A DNA stretch of 36,153 nt, taken from assembly GCA_030698765.1 (NCBI GenBank), contig JAUYMF010000174.1:1-36153 (forward strand), given 5' to 3'. Below, piece after piece: positions 3,730-30,908 of the stretch. The stretch comes from Dehalococcoidales bacterium (GTDB lineage Bacteria; Chloroflexota; Dehalococcoidia; Dehalococcoidales; UBA2162). The first letter of the stretch is position 1. Each line of letters opens with the position of its first letter. The position numbers were made by a program, and so were the translations under genes. The notes below the pieces were generated by a model, which searched no databases, was not told the DNA's origin, and saw only the letters and a list, made by a program, of their open reading frames with translations.

Positions 3730-4350
3730 ATGGTTAATCAAATAAAGCGCTTGAAAGCCAGGTTACAGAGGGCAAAAGACCGTCTTTTCAAAATACCCGC
3801 GGTACAGTTGATAGCTCGTACCGTAGAAGGAGCAGGTAATCATGATGCTACGCATAGAGCCGCCGGTGTAGCCTATTATGCCTTCCTGTCCATATTCCCA
3901 CTACTGCTGGGACTCATCGCTCTTTTTGGCTTTTTATTGCCTTCAGTAGATCTGCAGGACACACTGTTGAACTTTGTCGGCAAAAATATTCCCGGCGCCA
4001 CCAACATCCTGAAGCAAAATATTGCCGGTATTATCGAGTCACGGGGCACCATGGGTGTATTGAGCATAGTAATCTTCATCTGGGGCGCTAGTGCAATGTT
4101 CGGTGCGATAAGCCTGGCGATTAATCGTGCCTGGGATATTCACCGGTACCGCCGCTCTTTCTTCATTAGAAAAGGCAGCGAACTGGGCATGGTATTTGGT
4201 ATTGGTATTCTCTTTCTTCTCTCCCTGGGAGCCAGTGCCATCATTTCAATTTTACGCGGAGTATTAAACCTGCCCGTAGCAAACCTGATAATAGTAAACG
4301 TGGGCAGCAGGCTGTTCGGAGTGGCTGGTCGCAGGTGGGAATCACGGTAG
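3730..4350 (+). CDS. YihY/BrkB family membrane protein, C-terminally truncated
   Basis: A 206-aa remnant of a YihY-type integral membrane protein (once misnamed ribonuclease BN). The family core is clear: HRAAGVAYYAFLSIFPLLLG, then NILKQNIAGIIESRG and the WGASAMFGAISLAINRAWDI block. The usual length is about 280-300 aa. Homology stops near GSRLFG (about residue 198), and the frame ends after a short unrelated tail (VAGRRWESR). The DNA after that point reads, in another frame, like the end of an M4 peptidase, so the last helices were probably lost in a deletion. Probably non-functional. Confidence 0.75.
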   Translation: MVNQIKRLKARLQRAKDRLFKIPAVQLIARTVEGAGNHDATHRAAGVAYYAFLSIFPLLLGLIALFGFLLPSVDLQDTLLNFVGKNIPGATNILKQNIAGIIESRGTMGVLSIVIFIWGASAMFGAISLAINRAWDIHRYRRSFFIRKGSELGMVFGIGILFLLSLGASAIISILRGVLNLPVANLIIVNVGSRLFGVAGRRWESR

Positions 4351-4782: not shown

Positions 4783-5438
4783 CTATCGGGTGGAACCGCC
4801 GGGGATTTTCTCAATTGACGGAGCAGTAGGTACTGGCGGGTGAGGTGCGTTCGCACTCAGTATTGCCGAAATCAGTTGCTTCAATCGAGCGCTTTTTGTC
4901 CCCTCTGTGTCCTGAATCTCCTGCGCAATTGCTCTGGTTTCGCTGGAAGCCGTGAGGTAGGTCCCGGTGCAATAACCAGGCTTCGAGGCGACGAATAGAA
5001 TGGGGAAACCTGTTCCTAACTTATAGCCCCCGTAATATCCCAGTGTAATGGTGAATCGGTCGGCTTCATTCGGTTGGAAGCTGTGAGAAATCTTAATTGA
5101 ATCCGAGTAAGTCTCGCGCTTATATATCTCGAGCGTAACCGAGTAGTTCGCCGAAGGCGGCAGGTAGAATAAAGTGCTACGACCTGTGGGGATTAACCTT
5201 CAGACCCTGGTCATGGAGAAATCTGCCCGTGTTAACACGGCAGTCTGGTCTCCCGTATTACGCACTGTTATATCAAGGATAGGGTATCGCCCGGGCGCAT
5301 CATCAATAAATGCGTCTACTATCTCCAACCGGGGCCCCGGCGGTGGGGGTGGGCTGAACTAGCCACCACCATCTTAATCAAGGTTAGTAGTTGGCAACTA
5401 GAATATTCGGAGAGATAGACACTGACGTCAGGTTTCAT
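4783..5438 (-). pseudogene. Degenerate gene with in-frame TGA, CARDB-like N-terminal segment
   Basis: On the minus strand, the frame from 5358 down to the TAG at 4785-4783 is open except for one TGA at 5202-5200. Before the TGA it encodes a proline run and PRLEIVDAFIDDAPGRYPI plus VRNTGDQTAVLTRADF, resembling a CARDB/beta-sandwich domain. After it come about 138 residues rich in beta-strand patterns (YSVTLEIYKRETYSDSIKI, FTITLGYYGGYKLGTGF). No start codon lies in this frame. An ATG at 5438 opens a different frame that meets it at a C-rich tract near 5340-5355, suggesting an extra frameshift. It lies 30 bases below the 388-aa gene and was probably its operon partner. Confidence 0.55.
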
Positions 5439-5467: not shown

Positions 5468-6634
5468 TTACACTCTTCTCAGCTTTAGATACACGTCATA
5501 GATACCATCACTGTCTCCTCCATCAAAATGGAGCGGATCGAATATGATCGGATTTACAGCACTCGTTCTTGCATCCGCGTCTGCTTCGGTGAGGGACAGA
5601 GCAATAGTGTCGTTGATTTGATCATCGGCACCTATCAGGTCAATCAAGTAAGTTACTCCAATGCCCACCACAGCAACACCGGCTACGAGCCATCCAGCTA
5701 AACCTCCGGCTCCTGCCGCAGTAGTCGCAGCAGTAGTTAGAGCTGCTCTCACTGCATCAGTCGTTTCGCTAACGTCACCTAAATCATTCTCAAAGCATGA
5801 GGCAGTTATCAGGACTGAAGAGTCAATGGCACGCGGCCCTGCAAATCCAAAGAGGCGCAGATTTTCATCTCCGCTCTGCGGCCGTGTGTCGCCGTCATCC
5901 ACATCTTCATAAACGGGGGTGTGAGACGCCAGTGCTGGCGTACCAGCCTCTGCCATTTCTTCGGTAATGACCCCGAAAACAACGTAGGGTTCGTCACTGA
6001 TGTTCCCGAAAATTCCCAGATCCTCGGGGTTGCTTTCATCCACGCAGTACAGTTTGGTAAACGTGACTTCGTACTGGTTGGGTGGTGCAGTCGGGGTGGG
6101 ATCAGGTTGTGATGGAGGAGTTCCTTGACAACAACAGCAGCAGCAATCATGTGTTTCCTTGACAGGCAGTCTACCGGTAGTAGCCACTGCTGCGGCAATG
6201 GACCTTACGCTTGTATTTCTAAGCGCTCTTGCTCTTTGTACGATACCGACTATCTCAGGGATGTCAATCCCTTGCGTTATCCCAATATCCAGATACTTAG
6301 GTGAGAATGCTCGCCTCTTTATCGCCCTCGGTATTCCCCGATGTTTTTCGGCTGCTACTTCAAGCACCTTCCTTGCTTCCGGAATCTTATCCAGGGACCG
6401 AGCAAGGCGTTCATCCATGGCATTTTTGGAGTCCTCCGGTAACTGAGTCAGGTAGCGCTCGATGAGGTGCATCATGGCGGGGACGAACTCGTATCCCTCC
6501 CCCCTGACTTCGTATTTTCTCAGTCTATCTTCAAGCGACTTGTGCTGTCTCTTATTTCCATGCGTTCTGTCACATTTCTTTACCATTTTCCTTGAATAAA
6601 GGGATCTTTTCCTTTTCTGCTCTTCTGTAGCCAT
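5468..6634 (-). CDS. Unknown 388-aa protein with six consecutive cysteines
   Basis: The start is placed at 6634 because AAAGGAG lies 6 bases before that ATG; the frame is open further up without a better site. Residues 1-110 are very basic and helical. Residues 164-169 are six cysteines in a row, followed by a Pro/Thr linker (171-186). Residues about 187-285 look like a beta-sandwich (YEVTFTKLYCVDESNPEDLG, DEPYVVFG). Residues about 297-335 form an Ala/Gly-rich hydrophobic stretch (GGLAGWLVAGVAVVGIGVTY) that could cross a membrane. The C-terminus is acidic, then LKLRRV. No signal peptide. I do not recognise a family. The degenerate gene 4783-5438 follows. Confidence 0.7.
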   Translation of the reverse strand: MATEEQKRKRSLYSRKMVKKCDRTHGNKRQHKSLEDRLRKYEVRGEGYEFVPAMMHLIERYLTQLPEDSKNAMDERLARSLDKIPEARKVLEVAAEKHRGIPRAIKRRAFSPKYLDIGITQGIDIPEIVGIVQRARALRNTSVRSIAAAVATTGRLPVKETHDCCCCCCQGTPPSQPDPTPTAPPNQYEVTFTKLYCVDESNPEDLGIFGNISDEPYVVFGVITEEMAEAGTPALASHTPVYEDVDDGDTRPQSGDENLRLFGFAGPRAIDSSVLITASCFENDLGDVSETTDAVRAALTTAATTAAGAGGLAGWLVAGVAVVGIGVTYLIDLIGADDQINDTIALSLTEADADARTSAVNPIIFDPLHFDGGDSDGIYDVYLKLRRV

Positions 6635-7012
6635 GATTGTTTGCTCCTTTTGATGATTGATTAATTGGGTCACGTTTCCCTGGATAAGCTTCCTCACCAG
6701 CCATAGAAGAATCCTACCTTCCCGCTACATCTTGAATCATCTAATAAATACCTCCTTTTCATCTGCCAGACACACTGTAGCCTCACAGGGCAATAGCAGT
6801 TGTGAAGAAGAATATGACCCGAATCGGAATACATTCCCCCTTTTAATCGTACTATCATAGCCAGTCTTTTGAAATAGCTAAAAGGCCATAGAAAGAGTGG
6901 ATATAGTATCAATTTAAGGGCATAATAAGGTCAGTATCGTAAGTAAAGTGAGAATCGTATTATTAAACAAGGTAACAGGCATTTAGCGGGGAATTAATGT
7001 TTCTCTGTCCCT
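6635..7012. other. Intergenic region upstream of the hexacysteine gene
   Basis: This AT-rich stretch contains no long coding frame and presumably holds the promoter and leader of the minus-strand gene that begins at 6634. On the minus strand, a strong ribosome site (GGAGG at 6755-6751) sits 10 bases before an ATG at 6740 that opens an 8-codon frame ending at 6714; this could be a leader peptide. I could not pick a convincing -35/-10 pair or any known riboswitch. Confidence 0.4.
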
Positions 7013-9682: not shown

Positions 9683-9711
9683 GTTACGTTATACCTTGAC
9701 AGTAACGTAAC
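9683..9711. promoter_or_regulatory. Inverted repeat between divergent marR and merR genes (candidate operator)
   Basis: GTTACGTT at 9683-9690 and AACGTAAC at 9704-9711 are perfect inverted copies 13 bases apart. They enclose a TTGACA hexamer (9696-9701) facing the MerR gene, with a weak -10 candidate TACTCT at 9719-9724 (17-base spacer). This is the expected place for a MarR or MerR operator. Which protein binds is not visible from sequence. Confidence 0.5.
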
Positions 9712-9759
9712 GTTATGCTACTCTAAAAGTTAGTTATAGTTTTATGCAGGTAGGTTCTG

Positions 9760-10188
9760 GTGTCAGAGACTATCCTTCAAATTGGAGAGCTGGCTAAAAA
9801 GGCTGGCGTCAGTATACGTACGGTAAGGTACTATGAGGAGCTTGGTCTGCTCCTGCCATCAGAAGTGACATCGGGTGGTATGCGACTTTACCGTGAAGCT
9901 GACGTGACCCGGCTGCGTTTTATCCGGCGTTTGAGGGTGCTCCGCCTGAGTTTGGATGAGATAAGAGTAGCCCTGGGGCTGGAACAACCATCGCGGGGCC
10001 GGCAGGAACGGGTAGCACGCACCATGGATATACTACTGATGGAGCAGTCCCGTGCCGAGGAACAAATAGCCGCCCTGGCGGAATTGAAAGAAGAGGTGGA
10101 CCAGGCTCTGACCAATGTCAGGAAGTGCACGAAGTGTACTGTTGAAGAATGCCCGGAGACCTGTCCGCGGTTGGTCTACCTAATTTGA
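9760..10188 (+). CDS. MerR family regulator with four-Cys C-terminal tail
   Basis: A 142-aa protein with GTG start at 9760. Residues 7-75 are a typical MerR winged helix (IGELAKKAGVSIRTVRYYEE, GGMRLYREADV). A long dimerisation helix spans about 83-120. The C-terminus has C123-x2-C126-x4-C131-x3-C135, a possible metal or iron-sulphur site. MerR proteins activate promoters with long spacers by twisting DNA. The spacing is not the CxxCxC pattern of SoxR, so the ligand is open. It lies 58 bases upstream of an ACS-like gene on the same strand, which it may control. It diverges from the marR gene. Confidence 0.88.
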   Translation: MSETILQIGELAKKAGVSIRTVRYYEELGLLLPSEVTSGGMRLYREADVTRLRFIRRLRVLRLSLDEIRVALGLEQPSRGRQERVARTMDILLMEQSRAEEQIAALAELKEEVDQALTNVRKCTKCTVEECPETCPRLVYLI

Positions 10189-10246: not shown

Positions 10247-11677
10247 ATGAAAGTTGATGATGTATCTCTAGCGCGGGAACTGCTTAAAAAAGTTGGTGAT
10301 GTTTCGCCATTCTCCGGCAGCCAGTATTCTTATCCGCTGAACCAGTCCCTTTTCGGTGAGCTGGACATGGAAAAGCTGCGCCGTCATGCTGAGAGCAGTG
10401 ACGGCTCCCGGCTGAAAGAGGATTTACCTTTCCTCCTGGCCCTGGCTGAAGCTGTTGAGGCGTCACAGCCGGACAAGGGTGAGTTCTTCCTTAATGACCG
10501 GGAACTCAGAGCGCGACTGGTGCGACTCAACAGTACTGACGGCTGGGCTTTAATCTGGGGGCAGGATGATGAGAGGACGGCGGAACTGGCGTCCCGGCTC
10601 CAGCGTGAGAATTTTCAGGTCTATATTATGCTTAGAGGCGATGCTGGTGTTTCTCCGTCCCTGAGGGTGAATAAGCAGTACAAATTCCTCGGCTTTCGCT
10701 CGACCTCGACGGTCTATTTCTATCAGGCGCTGGTGCGCTATGCCCATATCTACGGACGTATACCCCTGGCCGATTCTCACGAGACCGGCGAGTTTATCCA
10801 GGACTACGCGCCGGGGGTGATGTTTCTGTCCGGAGAAGAACTCAGCCCGGTGGAGGAGGCGCTGTTTCTCGGTGGCCTCTACCTCGGCCTGCCGGGCATT
10901 GTCCCCACCTCTGTTTCCCTGCCCTACGGCACAGTGCTCCGGGCGGATGAGCCTCAGCAAATGGTGGAGAAAGCCCTTGACCTGCCCAATCTCCGGCTGC
11001 GCCGCCGACTGCGCTTCCAGGTGAATATCCCCTATAACTTCGATTCCACCTTTACCTCAGAGGAAATAAAGGAAGGTCCGGCCATCGGTGGTACTTCCCT
11101 CAGTTCCTTTGTTGTCAATAATGTCGATAAAGGGGATGGTATTGAGGTGCTGGGAGAGCCGGGGCCCGATGTTGCCATCGAGATTGCCATTGGTGATCCC
11201 GGTGTGGATATTACCATGACCGATTATCTGGAGGAGTTCGCCGCCGGGCTACCCGGTTACGTCCAGGGGGTCTCCGCGGCGGTGAAGGCAGGCGTCCCAT
11301 TTATCCGCTGGCGCAGTGATTTGCCGTTGCAGATGACCGAGCTTGGCCAGGCTTACTATGACGGCCTGAAAGCCCACTTCAAGATTGACCGGCTTAAAGT
11401 CCGCCTTGTTTTTAACGGGTCAATGCTGCCGGATATGAAGGCTGAGGCTGAAGCTTTCCGGCAGAAACGGGAACGGGCGGTGCTGGCTGCCAGCGAGGAA
11501 ACCGAGCCTTTCTTCTATGCCTGCACCCGCTGTCATTCCTTCGCTCTGGAGCATTGCTGTATCATCACCCCTGATCGCCCGCCCCAGTGCGGCTCCCGGA
11601 CGTGGATGGAGGTCAAGGCGCGCGCCGTTCTCTCTGACTTCGATAACCGAGGACTGGGTGCGGCAATCAGGGCCTGA
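10247..11677 (+). CDS. Divergent acetyl-CoA synthase (AcsB/CdhC-like) paralogue, 5' part before frameshift
   Basis: The start is ATG 10247, behind GAAAGGAG. The 476-aa frame resembles AcsB throughout but diverges strongly from the complete AcsB at 28701. The A-cluster region is kept: C426, C429, C438 and C448 (FYACTRCHSFALEHC, PQCGSRTWM) have the same spacing as C512, C515, C524 and C534 of the complete protein. The frame ends at TGA 11675-11677, whereas AcsB homology resumes in the +1 frame. The N-terminus is about 86 residues shorter than in the main AcsB up to this point. Either a frameshifted gene or a sequence error; function of the intact form unknown. Confidence 0.75.
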   Translation: MKVDDVSLARELLKKVGDVSPFSGSQYSYPLNQSLFGELDMEKLRRHAESSDGSRLKEDLPFLLALAEAVEASQPDKGEFFLNDRELRARLVRLNSTDGWALIWGQDDERTAELASRLQRENFQVYIMLRGDAGVSPSLRVNKQYKFLGFRSTSTVYFYQALVRYAHIYGRIPLADSHETGEFIQDYAPGVMFLSGEELSPVEEALFLGGLYLGLPGIVPTSVSLPYGTVLRADEPQQMVEKALDLPNLRLRRRLRFQVNIPYNFDSTFTSEEIKEGPAIGGTSLSSFVVNNVDKGDGIEVLGEPGPDVAIEIAIGDPGVDITMTDYLEEFAAGLPGYVQGVSAAVKAGVPFIRWRSDLPLQMTELGQAYYDGLKAHFKIDRLKVRLVFNGSMLPDMKAEAEAFRQKRERAVLAASEETEPFFYACTRCHSFALEHCCIITPDRPPQCGSRTWMEVKARAVLSDFDNRGLGAAIRA

Positions 11678-12158
11678 TCTCCAGGCGGTGGTCGAGAAGG
11701 GAAGCTCGGTAAGCGCCGAGAGGGGTGAATATGAGGGTGCCAACCGATCTGTGGCGCTGCTCACCGAAGACCGTACCCGCCGTGTTTTCCTGCATAGTAT
11801 TTTTGACCACCCGCATACCGCCTGTAGTTGCTTTCAGGGTGTGGCTTTTTATATCAAAGAGGTGGATGGCATCGGGCTGGTGGACAGGGCATTCAAAGGT
11901 ACTACTCCTGATGGCTATACCTGGGATGATATCGCTAACGCCGCCGCCGGTAAACAGTCGTCAGGGTACGCGGCTTTTGGCGGTGACTATCTGAAGTCGC
12001 GCAAGTTTCTGCAAGCAGACGGAGGCTGGCAGCGCATCGTCTGGATGTCCCGCGCATTGAAGGAAAGGTTCGCCTCAGACAAGGCCTGGATTGCCACCGA
12101 GGATGATGTCAGTGATATTGATGAGCTTGCCGCGTTCCTCAAGGCAAAAAGAGGCTGA
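11658..12158 (+). CDS. AcsB/CdhC-like paralogue, 3' part after +1 frameshift
   Basis: This frame carries the rest of the ACS-like protein: GPDLQAVVEKG, then YEGANRS (compare WKGVNEF in AcsB), and TACSCFQGV, where Cys-Ser-Cys (codons 11823-11831) sits where AcsB has the two distal A-cluster cysteines. Later AAFGGDYLKSRKFLQADGGW aligns with YNITQRKFIAGDGALLRMVW. It ends like AcsB with a helix and an acidic D-D-V-S-D-I-D segment. The GTG at 11658 is only the first possible start; the segment has no ribosome site of its own and was most likely part of one gene with 10247-11677. Confidence 0.7.
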   Translation: MRQSGPDLQAVVEKGSSVSAERGEYEGANRSVALLTEDRTRRVFLHSIFDHPHTACSCFQGVAFYIKEVDGIGLVDRAFKGTTPDGYTWDDIANAAAGKQSSGYAAFGGDYLKSRKFLQADGGWQRIVWMSRALKERFASDKAWIATEDDVSDIDELAAFLKAKRG

Positions 12159-28700: not shown

Positions 28701-30908
28701 ATGTCTAAAATAATTGCGTCAGCAGCAATCAGAGGCGCGCACAAGATTTTCAATCGCGCGGAGGAAAAGTGGCAACAGGCGATGGACAAGTGGGGACCCA
28801 ATGAACCGGTGGGGTTCCCCAATACCGCCTATTACCTGCCGGTGATATATGGAATCCTGGGCGCCAAGGTGGAAAAACTGGGGGACATGGAGCCGATCCT
28901 GAAAAAGTGTAAATCAATCCTGCCCCCCCCGGTTAAGGAGCAGTACGCTCTACCCTATCTGGCGCCGGCCCTTGACGCCGGTATGGTGACCTTCTTCGCC
29001 GAGGAGATTATCGAAGCGATACGCTATCTTGAGCAGCCTGACTTTTATACCAAGCAGGAAGATGTCACCGCGGACAATATCTGGCTGGGTGCGGCTGATG
29101 ATGTTATCCTGAGAAAAAGGGGCGTGGAGTTTGTTGATGGTACTGCCCCCGGCTTTGCCGCCATACTCGGGGCGGCGCCCAGTCCGGAAATAGCCGCCAG
29201 GATTGCTCAGGAACTCCAGAAGAAGAACCTGTACGTCTTTATGGGCGGTGAATATAACGGCAAAAGGTTCTCGGAGCAACTTCTCGAAGCCGGAGTCCAG
29301 ATTGGCTGGGGAACACGCCTGGTCTCATTCGGGCCGGATACCAGCGCCACCGTCTTTGCCATGGGCTTTGCTACCCGGGCGGCGATGTCTTTCGGCGGTA
29401 TCCAGCCGGGCGAGTACCGGAAAATCCTCATCTACAATAAAGACCGCATCTTCGCTTTCGCTCTGCCGCTGGGCTACGTAACTGATGAATGGTATGCCAA
29501 TGCCGCCGGGGCCATTAACTGGGGGTTCCCTACTATCGCCGATACGCCTATCCCCGAGGTCCTGCCCACCGGCCTGACCACATACGAGCACGTTGTTTCC
29601 AATATCCCACACGACCAGCTGGTGGCGAAGGCGATAGAGGTCAGAGGCCTGAAAGTGACGGTGACGGAAGTGCCGATACCGGTGGCTTTTGGCGCTGCCT
29701 TCGAGGGTGAGAGAGTCCGGGGTGAAGATATCTATCTGGAGGCCGGTGGCGGCCGTACCCCGATGGTGGAGTGGGTGAGCAGCAAGCGGATGGATGAGGT
29801 GGAGGACGGCAGGATTGAGGTAATCGGGCCGGAATTGACCGATGTCCCCGCCGGTTCCAGACTGCCCCTGGCGATTACTGTTGAAGTTGCCGGCAGGGAG
29901 ATGCAGGAGGACTACGAGCCGATTCTGGAGAGGCAGATTCACCACCTGATTAACTATGCCCAGGGGGCGATGCATATCGGCCAGAGGGATATTGCCTGGC
30001 TGCGGGTCGGTAAACAGGCGGTGGAAAAGGGTTTTAAACTCTCGCATATCGGGACTATTCTCCACGCCAAACTGCACCAGGACTTCGGGCGGATATTTGA
30101 TAAGATGCAGGTTAAACTCTATACCGAAGAGGATAAAGTCAAAGAAATGGTGGAGAAGGCTAGAGAGGTGTACCAGCATCGGGATGCTCGTATTGAAGGC
30201 ATGACCGATGAAACTACTGATATGTACTATTCCTGCACCCTCTGCCAGTCATTTGCTCCCGGTCACGTCTGTGTTATCAGTCCGGAAAGGACCGGGCTCT
30301 GCGGCTCTTATAACTGGATGGACTGTAAAGCTTCCTTTGAGATTAATCCCACCGGGCCTAACCAGCCGGTGCCGAAAGGGGATGTAATTGATGCCAAGCT
30401 GGGGCAATGGAAAGGTGTCAACGAGTTTGTCTATAAGGCTTCCCGCGGGAAGATAGACCATTACAACTTCTACAGCCTGGTCAATGACCCGATGACCACC
30501 TGCGGTTGCTGTGAGTGTATTGCGGCGGTGTTGCCGATGTCCAATGGTGTCATGACGGTGAACCGGGAGTACACGGGAGAGACCCCCTGCGGGATGAAGT
30601 TCACCACCTTGGCCGGGACTATCGGCGGTGGTATCAGCACCCCCGGCTTCGTGGGTCACGGCAAGTATAATATCACCCAGAGGAAGTTCATCGCCGGTGA
30701 TGGCGCATTGCTAAGAATGGTCTGGATGCCCAAGATGCTGAAGGAAGAGATTGGCGACCGGCTTAAAGCCAGGGCGGCGGAGCTGGGTGTTCCTGACCTG
30801 CTCGATATGATTGCCGATGAGACCGTTGGCGTCACTGAAGAGGATATCCTGCCATTCCTGCAGGAGAAAGGGCATCCTGCCCTGACCATGGACCCGATAC
30901 TGGGCTGA
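28701..30908 (+). CDS. acsB: Acetyl-CoA synthase catalytic subunit (bacterial type)
   Basis: A 735-aa protein with the bacterial N-terminal CODH-binding domain. The A-cluster cysteines are C512, C515, C524, C534, C601 and C603 (YYSCTLCQSF, GLCGSYNWMD, TTCGCCECI); all six sit exactly 6 residues beyond the Moorella numbering (506, 509, 518, 528, 595, 597). It joins CO, the methyl group and CoA to acetyl-CoA. The C-terminal GDGALLRMVWMPKMLK is conserved. The ribosome site is GGGGG, 13 bases ahead. The gene is intact, unlike the paralogue at 10247. Confidence 0.97.
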   Translation: MSKIIASAAIRGAHKIFNRAEEKWQQAMDKWGPNEPVGFPNTAYYLPVIYGILGAKVEKLGDMEPILKKCKSILPPPVKEQYALPYLAPALDAGMVTFFAEEIIEAIRYLEQPDFYTKQEDVTADNIWLGAADDVILRKRGVEFVDGTAPGFAAILGAAPSPEIAARIAQELQKKNLYVFMGGEYNGKRFSEQLLEAGVQIGWGTRLVSFGPDTSATVFAMGFATRAAMSFGGIQPGEYRKILIYNKDRIFAFALPLGYVTDEWYANAAGAINWGFPTIADTPIPEVLPTGLTTYEHVVSNIPHDQLVAKAIEVRGLKVTVTEVPIPVAFGAAFEGERVRGEDIYLEAGGGRTPMVEWVSSKRMDEVEDGRIEVIGPELTDVPAGSRLPLAITVEVAGREMQEDYEPILERQIHHLINYAQGAMHIGQRDIAWLRVGKQAVEKGFKLSHIGTILHAKLHQDFGRIFDKMQVKLYTEEDKVKEMVEKAREVYQHRDARIEGMTDETTDMYYSCTLCQSFAPGHVCVISPERTGLCGSYNWMDCKASFEINPTGPNQPVPKGDVIDAKLGQWKGVNEFVYKASRGKIDHYNFYSLVNDPMTTCGCCECIAAVLPMSNGVMTVNREYTGETPCGMKFTTLAGTIGGGISTPGFVGHGKYNITQRKFIAGDGALLRMVWMPKMLKEEIGDRLKARAAELGVPDLLDMIADETVGVTEEDILPFLQEKGHPALTMDPILG

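Follow-up and report, generated by a model that had tools for sequence, protein, structure and literature searches.

The enzyme ACS is among the oldest known and is regarded as working only together with CODH and the corrinoid protein AcsCD. In the open-access literature, we found no description of an orphan ACS or of one linked to a MerR regulator. In Dehalococcoides, which belongs to the same phylum and has no CODH, AcsB was proposed to cleave acetyl-CoA into CO, CoA and a methyl group that is taken by AcsCD (PMC7005905). This acetyl-CoA decarbonylase is an ACS without CODH and offers a precedent for the mode proposed below, although it uses AcsCD for methyl supply and is likened to our protein by its described mode of action. 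A study on the absence of CODH/ACS, for which an HCP is the candidate (PMC7000372), proved unrelated. Here, we analysed a window of 36,153 nucleotides (contig JAUYMF010000174.1) from a Dehalococcoidales bacterium, whose genome (G000; 1.94 Mb in 190 contigs) encodes two ACS: a canonical one within the acs operon and an orphan at 10247-12158. We use "family X" as a working name for the clade of orphan ACS-like proteins to which the latter belongs. The explanation that we favour as a whole, with slightly better than even confidence, is that family X would be a real A-cluster enzyme, free of a dedicated CODH and encoded in an accessory cassette under the control of MerR.

The orphan gene, the MerR gene upstream of it and their promoter/operator lie on the plus strand, as does the canonical AcsB gene mentioned below. 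The gene starts with the ATG at 10247, which is preceded by a GGAG motif and is the same start as in the homologues. Its N-terminal part (10247-11657, first frame) contains domain 1 in reduced form, domain 2 and all four [4Fe-4S] cysteines, which are codons 426, 429, 438 and 448 counted from this ATG (11522-11590). The C-terminal part (11658-12158, second frame) carries the Ni-site motif Cys-Ser-Cys, written as TGT-AGT-TGC at 11823-11831, and thus the cysteine positions given in the earlier note were borne out by the codons. A single frame switch (11650-11677) separates the two parts; beyond it, the first frame meets TGA (11675-11677) after about six codons. In tblastn, the matches of intact homologues lay in frame +2 as far as about 11656 and in frame +3 from about 11676 onwards. 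We placed the switch with the help of a profile derived from the seven intact relatives: the first frame matched its positions 5-464 with 636 bits, and the second frame its positions 444-629 with 270 bits. The first frame ended at 11657-11659 and the second resumed at about 11658, with zero profile positions lost. The two frames therefore cover the whole family profile and nothing is missing from the gene, in line with the earlier note, in which they together cover an AcsB-like protein; the divergent ACS is complete, with one switch, no other stop and no second lesion across about 634 codons. At the position corresponding to 11650-11677, none of the seven intact relatives has a break. PF19436 (ACS_CODH_B_C) scored 46.7 and 108.3 bits on the N- and C-terminal pieces against a cut-off of 25, so the match to ACS is far beyond chance. 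All NCBIfam matches of both pieces were ACS families, far below the equivalog cut-offs. For example, NF040764 gave 100.7 and 125.2 bits on the window pieces and up to 224 bits on intact members (curated cut-off 800), and NF003379 gave 180.7 bits on the C-terminal piece. For comparison only, the canonical bifunctional AcsB of the acs operon (28701-30908), which is outside the orphan system, reached 1100 bits with NF040764. PF18537, the CODH-docking N-terminal domain, was detected in this canonical AcsB and was absent from the orphan pieces. The acs operon starts about 7 kb downstream of the orphan gene and a MerR gene (9760-10188) lies directly upstream, which agrees with the arrangement described before.

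Family X members of about 630-640 aa, mostly unbroken, were found in nine genomes of the same phylum. Genome G004 has two unbroken copies (G004a and G004b, 635-640 aa), and further unbroken genes occur in G002, G212, G166, G178 and G192 (629-638 aa). The C-terminal piece of the window protein was 62-65% identical to G004a, G004b and the G212 protein. Carriers amounted to 3 of 156 genomes of the order. Of 393 genomes sampled from the class, 8 had the gene, and the own genome was the only carrier among 400 sampled from the phylum. A search reaching beyond the phylum returned only the two G004 copies and a Bacillota sequence (L023, 22%), which was rejected as a canonical ACS of 742 aa. The very sparse occurrence and the repeated breakage or truncation of its genes mark the family as dispensable. 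A canonical ACS above the cut-off was also present in all eight other carriers checked. In a tree of domains 2-3, family X formed one clade (100/100) on a long branch, within which the window sequence clustered with G004 and G212, while the canonical ACS of the same class grouped together and apart from it. Placement relative to archaeal ACS was uncertain, with long branches for G002 and for an archaeal-type sequence. The earlier note had offered a decaying duplicate as one origin; identity of 22-28% and the separate 100/100 clade ruled out a recent duplicate of the local AcsB, and what survives of that suggestion is that this particular copy may be freshly inactivated or mis-assembled. The first of its suggestions, a distinct ACS-like enzyme, gained from the deep clade apart from canonical ACS, from the largely unbroken homologues with their cysteines and from purifying selection (see below). 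A second broken family X gene was seen in G242 (L069:2472-4277 and 5256-5405), which is interrupted by a TAG and by two changes of frame and whose 3' piece is duplicated. The same bin has a canonical ACS and also an archaeal-type CdhC-like ACS of 448 aa with CGC (L080, G242:C83), which may be contamination of a bacterial bin. Furthermore, G212 (L071:3705-4442) and G256 (L070:591-1358) have ORFs of 246-256 aa whose counterpart in family X is limited to domain 1, both beside RNase Y and an EamA transporter. They were 63% identical with a dN/dS of 0.19, so that selection may perhaps have preserved domain 1 here as a protein of its own.

The window protein has only seven cysteines in total. Exactly six cysteine columns are invariant in all eight family X members, and these are the six A-cluster ligands; the CxxC-x8-C-x9-C motif and the CxC motif of the Ni site were likewise present in 8/8. 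The middle residue of the distal CxC is Ser in six members and Gly in the other two (G192 and G002), both on long branches. In the Moorella enzyme, the backbone nitrogen of the corresponding Gly596 contacts Ni-d and its carbonyl contacts Arg142 of domain 1 (PMC11474084). By analogy, Ser at this position could play the same backbone role, and the position of R142 is Arg in all eight members. The CO alcove of Moorella consists of G145, I146, V149, F229 and F512 (PMC11321310). In family X, F512 was kept and the position of I146 was mostly aliphatic, F229 was replaced by Tyr (Trp in G002), G145 was replaced by Leu or Val and V149 fell within a gap. Altered CO handling would be expected from this analogy, because variants of F229 change CO affinity strongly in Moorella: F229W showed higher CO binding and F229A abolished autotrophic growth (PMC11321310). 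Short ACS proteins of about 415-440 aa without domain 1 were observed in six related genomes (G135, G136, G140, G155, G126 and G138; L082-L087; L105:8395-9705). They kept the four [4Fe-4S] cysteines and lost the CxC of the Ni site (CEW in four, SDC and CNQ in the others), indicating that retention of the Ni site in family X is not mere inertia. In G140, the short gene lies in an operon fhs-RACE-folD-acsD-acsB(short)-acsC-acsE with no CODH gene, and such proteins are possibly methyl-transfer scaffolds without Ni chemistry.

Compared with bacterial AcsB (Moorella 1OAO, C. hydrogenoformans 7ZKJ; NF040764), family X has the same order of domains A1-A2-A3, the six A-cluster cysteines with equal spacing, F512 and an R142-type Arg in A1, and a modelled overall fold at TM 0.73-0.74. 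It differs in being about 100 residues shorter, although domain 1 is present, in the distal motif, which reads CSC instead of CGC in six of the eight members, in Tyr or Trp at the position of F229, in the loss of G145 and V149, in the lack of detectable PF18537 and PF03598 and in lying outside a CODH operon. Of the canonical invariant residues, its members kept on average 36% in domain 1, 34% in domain 2 and 54% in domain 3; 29 of the 69 invariants of domain 3 were kept in at least seven of the eight members. Archaeal CdhC (M. thermophila 9C0S; NF003379, TIGR00316) gave the best score for the C-terminal half of the window protein, 180.7 bits versus 125 for the bacterial family, and shares the motifs GKQ, DGGW-R-VVW and IATE-DV with it; identity in the fold match to the model was 31%, at TM 0.82 on the target. 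However, archaeal CdhC has no domain 1, whereas family X has one, scores below the curated cut-offs and is in no Cdh operon. An AF2 model of the G004b protein from 20 sequences reached a pLDDT of 87.9 and its best PDB matches were all ACS, with TM 0.74 to the closed monomeric ACS of C. hydrogenoformans (7NYP) and 0.82-0.83, by target, to the Methanosarcina ACS (9C0S and 9C0T). Since this alignment included canonical ACS, the match is support for the fold and not independent proof; an earlier model from eight family sequences alone (pLDDT 75.6, weak around the A-cluster) also found ACS as its best structure matches. A search with PF03598 (CdhC) to E 0.001 left both window pieces unmatched; their sequence is too divergent for it, though the model aligns over that domain. 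To judge from these sequence comparisons, no described family fits family X, because it falls short of the AcsB equivalog and lacks the docking domain and the operon, while it has the cysteines, the fold and the superfamily match.

No CODH or AcsCD gene adjoins X in any of the loci that we examined. Instead, the recurrent neighbours were flavin, thiol and RdhA/QueG-like Fe-S genes. For example, G004a is accompanied by genes for a PNPOx-like protein, an AhpD-like protein, a QueG-like Fe-S protein and an FMN reductase, and G004b by PNPOx and QueG-like genes. The G192 gene has beside it one for a thioredoxin-like protein and one for a PNPOx that shares 64% identity with the G004 PNPOx, while G178 has a QueG-like gene and one for a reductive-dehalogenase-like protein (TIGR02486, above cut-off). 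A reductive-dehalogenase-like protein is encoded next to X in G212, DsbA-like and QueG-like proteins in G242, and a PaaX-type regulator and transketolase in G166. In the window, genes read from the sequence as thioredoxin reductase and thioredoxin follow downstream on the opposite strand. Genes for a corrinoid partner do not recur consistently next to family X. A QueG-like protein as obligatory partner was rejected, as it is present in many genomes without X and no relative of it was found in the own genome.

The MerR-family regulator upstream (PF13411, 73.9 bits) ends in a Cys4 motif (CTKCTVEECPETC) of the form C-x2-C-x4/5-C-x3-C. It was 48-69% identical to the MerR proteins beside the ACS-like genes of G004 and to a G212 orthologue, and scored below every metal-specific NCBIfam cut-off. 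Its promoter/operator (9696-9724) has the layout TTGACA-G-TAACGTAACGTTA-TGC-TACTCT, in which TTGACA occupies 9696-9701, the palindrome 9703-9715 and TACTCT is a weak -10. At both G004 loci, TTGACA-N-TRACG-N3-CGTTA lies between the divergent merR and the X operon. Seven genomes were scanned with up to two mismatches, which gave one site in the own genome, both G004 loci, one exact site in G212 and one two-mismatch site in G002; the reversed pattern, used as control, had no match in the seven genomes. Because the pattern was derived from the other three sites, the G212 site is an independent confirmation; its contig carries the merR orthologue and no X. A MerR gene that does lie near X in G212 (L065:11664-12179) was rejected as the orthologue, which sits on this other contig. 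By the operator search, the merR-X operon seems to be the only target of the regulator in the own genome. A slightly different site was found in G003, a genome lacking X, where it separates merR from an AhpD-like gene. MerR-type activators have a spacer of 19-20 bp between -35 and -10 and act by torsional activation. The window regulator resembles the CadR/PbrR, ZntR and CueR types in its HTH, its dimer helix and the palindromic operator between -35 and -10, but differs in its C-terminal Cys4 and in the spacer, which was 17 bp at all five sites inspected. A palindrome within a spacer of normal length argues for repression rather than torsional activation, and this MerR would probably be a repressor. 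Linkage of homologues to MerR, as raised by the earlier note, held for the window and both G004 loci with their common operator and failed as a universal rule, given the PaaX-type regulator of G166 and no adjacent regulator in G178, G192 and G002. MerR with the operator and without X was observed in G003 (L104:6002-6974), G212 (L095:8078-10857) and G002 (L096:3476-5047, where merR looks damaged), with AhpD-like, DsbA-like, PNPOx, QueG-like and FMN-reductase genes alongside. As the cassette exists without X in G003 and G212, X is an optional member of it. No description of such a MerR-controlled redox cassette was found.

The comparison of synonymous and non-synonymous changes bears on the fate of the window copy. 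Among family X members, dN/dS (Nei-Gojobori) was 0.11-0.26 where dS was defined; the closest pairs gave 0.11-0.19 in either part of the gene. All are rough values with dS near saturation. Between the window and G004a it was 0.17 before and 0.17 after the break, equally rough for the same saturation, with identities of 58% and 64%, respectively. These values indicate purifying selection with about equal constraint on both sides, so the break either arose recently or is an error of assembly. In our estimate, there is an even chance that the gene is intact in the organism and that the switch is an artefact of sequencing or assembly: there is a single switch that costs no profile position, both sides are constrained with the six cysteines all kept, and the relatives are intact. 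However, most other genes of the window look intact and the contig is not generally error-ridden. Somewhat less probable is a freshly inactivated or decaying pseudogene, an accessory gene useful elsewhere and being lost here. The stop soon after the switch and the patchy distribution of the family would fit such a loss, and so would the broken relative in G242 with the lesions described above and the copies in G212 and G256 that end after domain 1. Yet a decaying gene sits poorly with the lack of a second lesion, with the similar identity and dN/dS on both sides and with the intact promoter, operator and MerR, and a one-base error is equally likely in a MAG of 190 contigs. The earlier note had also considered a gene needing frameshifting. 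Both frames are indeed still constrained, but the seven intact relatives use one frame throughout and none needs a shift, GGACTGGGTGCGGCAATCAGGGCCTGA shows neither an evident slippery heptamer nor a site for a stop-assisted shift, and the stop stands about six codons past the switch rather than at it. We therefore dismissed programmed ribosomal frameshifting as very improbable.

In the explanation that we favour, a CODH-free A-cluster enzyme, the six conserved cysteines would most likely hold a Ni-Ni-[4Fe-4S] A-cluster, over which domain 1 of the ACS fold could still close. A thioester of the acetyl-CoA type would most likely be made or cleaved without a dedicated CODH, and CO would enter or leave the enzyme as free gas. 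For the methyl group, the exchange partner would be a corrinoid protein: the organism's own AcsCD in trans or, in genomes with such a gene nearby, an RdhA/QueG-like protein. RdhA-like and QueG-like cobalamin-type Fe-S proteins are candidate alkyl partners in some genomes, while AcsCD in trans is the simpler assumption for the own genome because it has no QueG-like relative. Expression would be controlled by the Cys4 MerR via the palindrome within the 17-bp spacer, and the window copy would differ by one frame switch, recent in the organism or an error of assembly. In the sequences, the replacement of Gly596 by Ser in six of eight members, the loss of two of the five CO-alcove residues, the want of a consistent corrinoid partner and the sparse, dispensable nature of the family count against this explanation. 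The same replacement and the altered alcove would suit a non-catalytic protein, whose A-cluster-like site binds, stores or senses metal, CO or redox state in a stress or metal response controlled by MerR. The partners in the MerR regulon (AhpD-like, PNPOx, FMN reductase and DsbA-like) and the lack of CODH or AcsCD neighbours also point in this direction. However, a sensor or store would have no need of ACS residues far from the metal site, and family X keeps the full three-domain architecture and many such residues (29/69 in domain 3), so we regard this role as unlikely. Still less likely, on the same sequences, would be a CODH-free nickel A-cluster enzyme with a new partner or substrate, in which a methyl or other alkyl group is exchanged with an RdhA/QueG-type cobalamin protein and not with AcsCD, and which a thiol- or metal-sensing MerR induces; if so, A-cluster chemistry would serve a stress or xenobiotic response instead of carbon fixation. 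More generally, an orphan clade with the A-cluster kept, the docking region lost, the alcove changed and MerR in control would show that A-cluster chemistry was reused outside carbon fixation, and family X supplies natural variants (CSC and F229Y) with which the roles of the alcove and the Ni ligands could be probed.

Two further ORFs in the window deserve mention. An ORF of 206 aa at 3730-4350 (plus strand), presumably a YihY/BrkB-like membrane protein, looks C-terminally truncated with no continuation seen in another frame. On the minus strand, an ORF of 409 aa at 5468-6697 contains six consecutive cysteines (HDCCCCCCQG).
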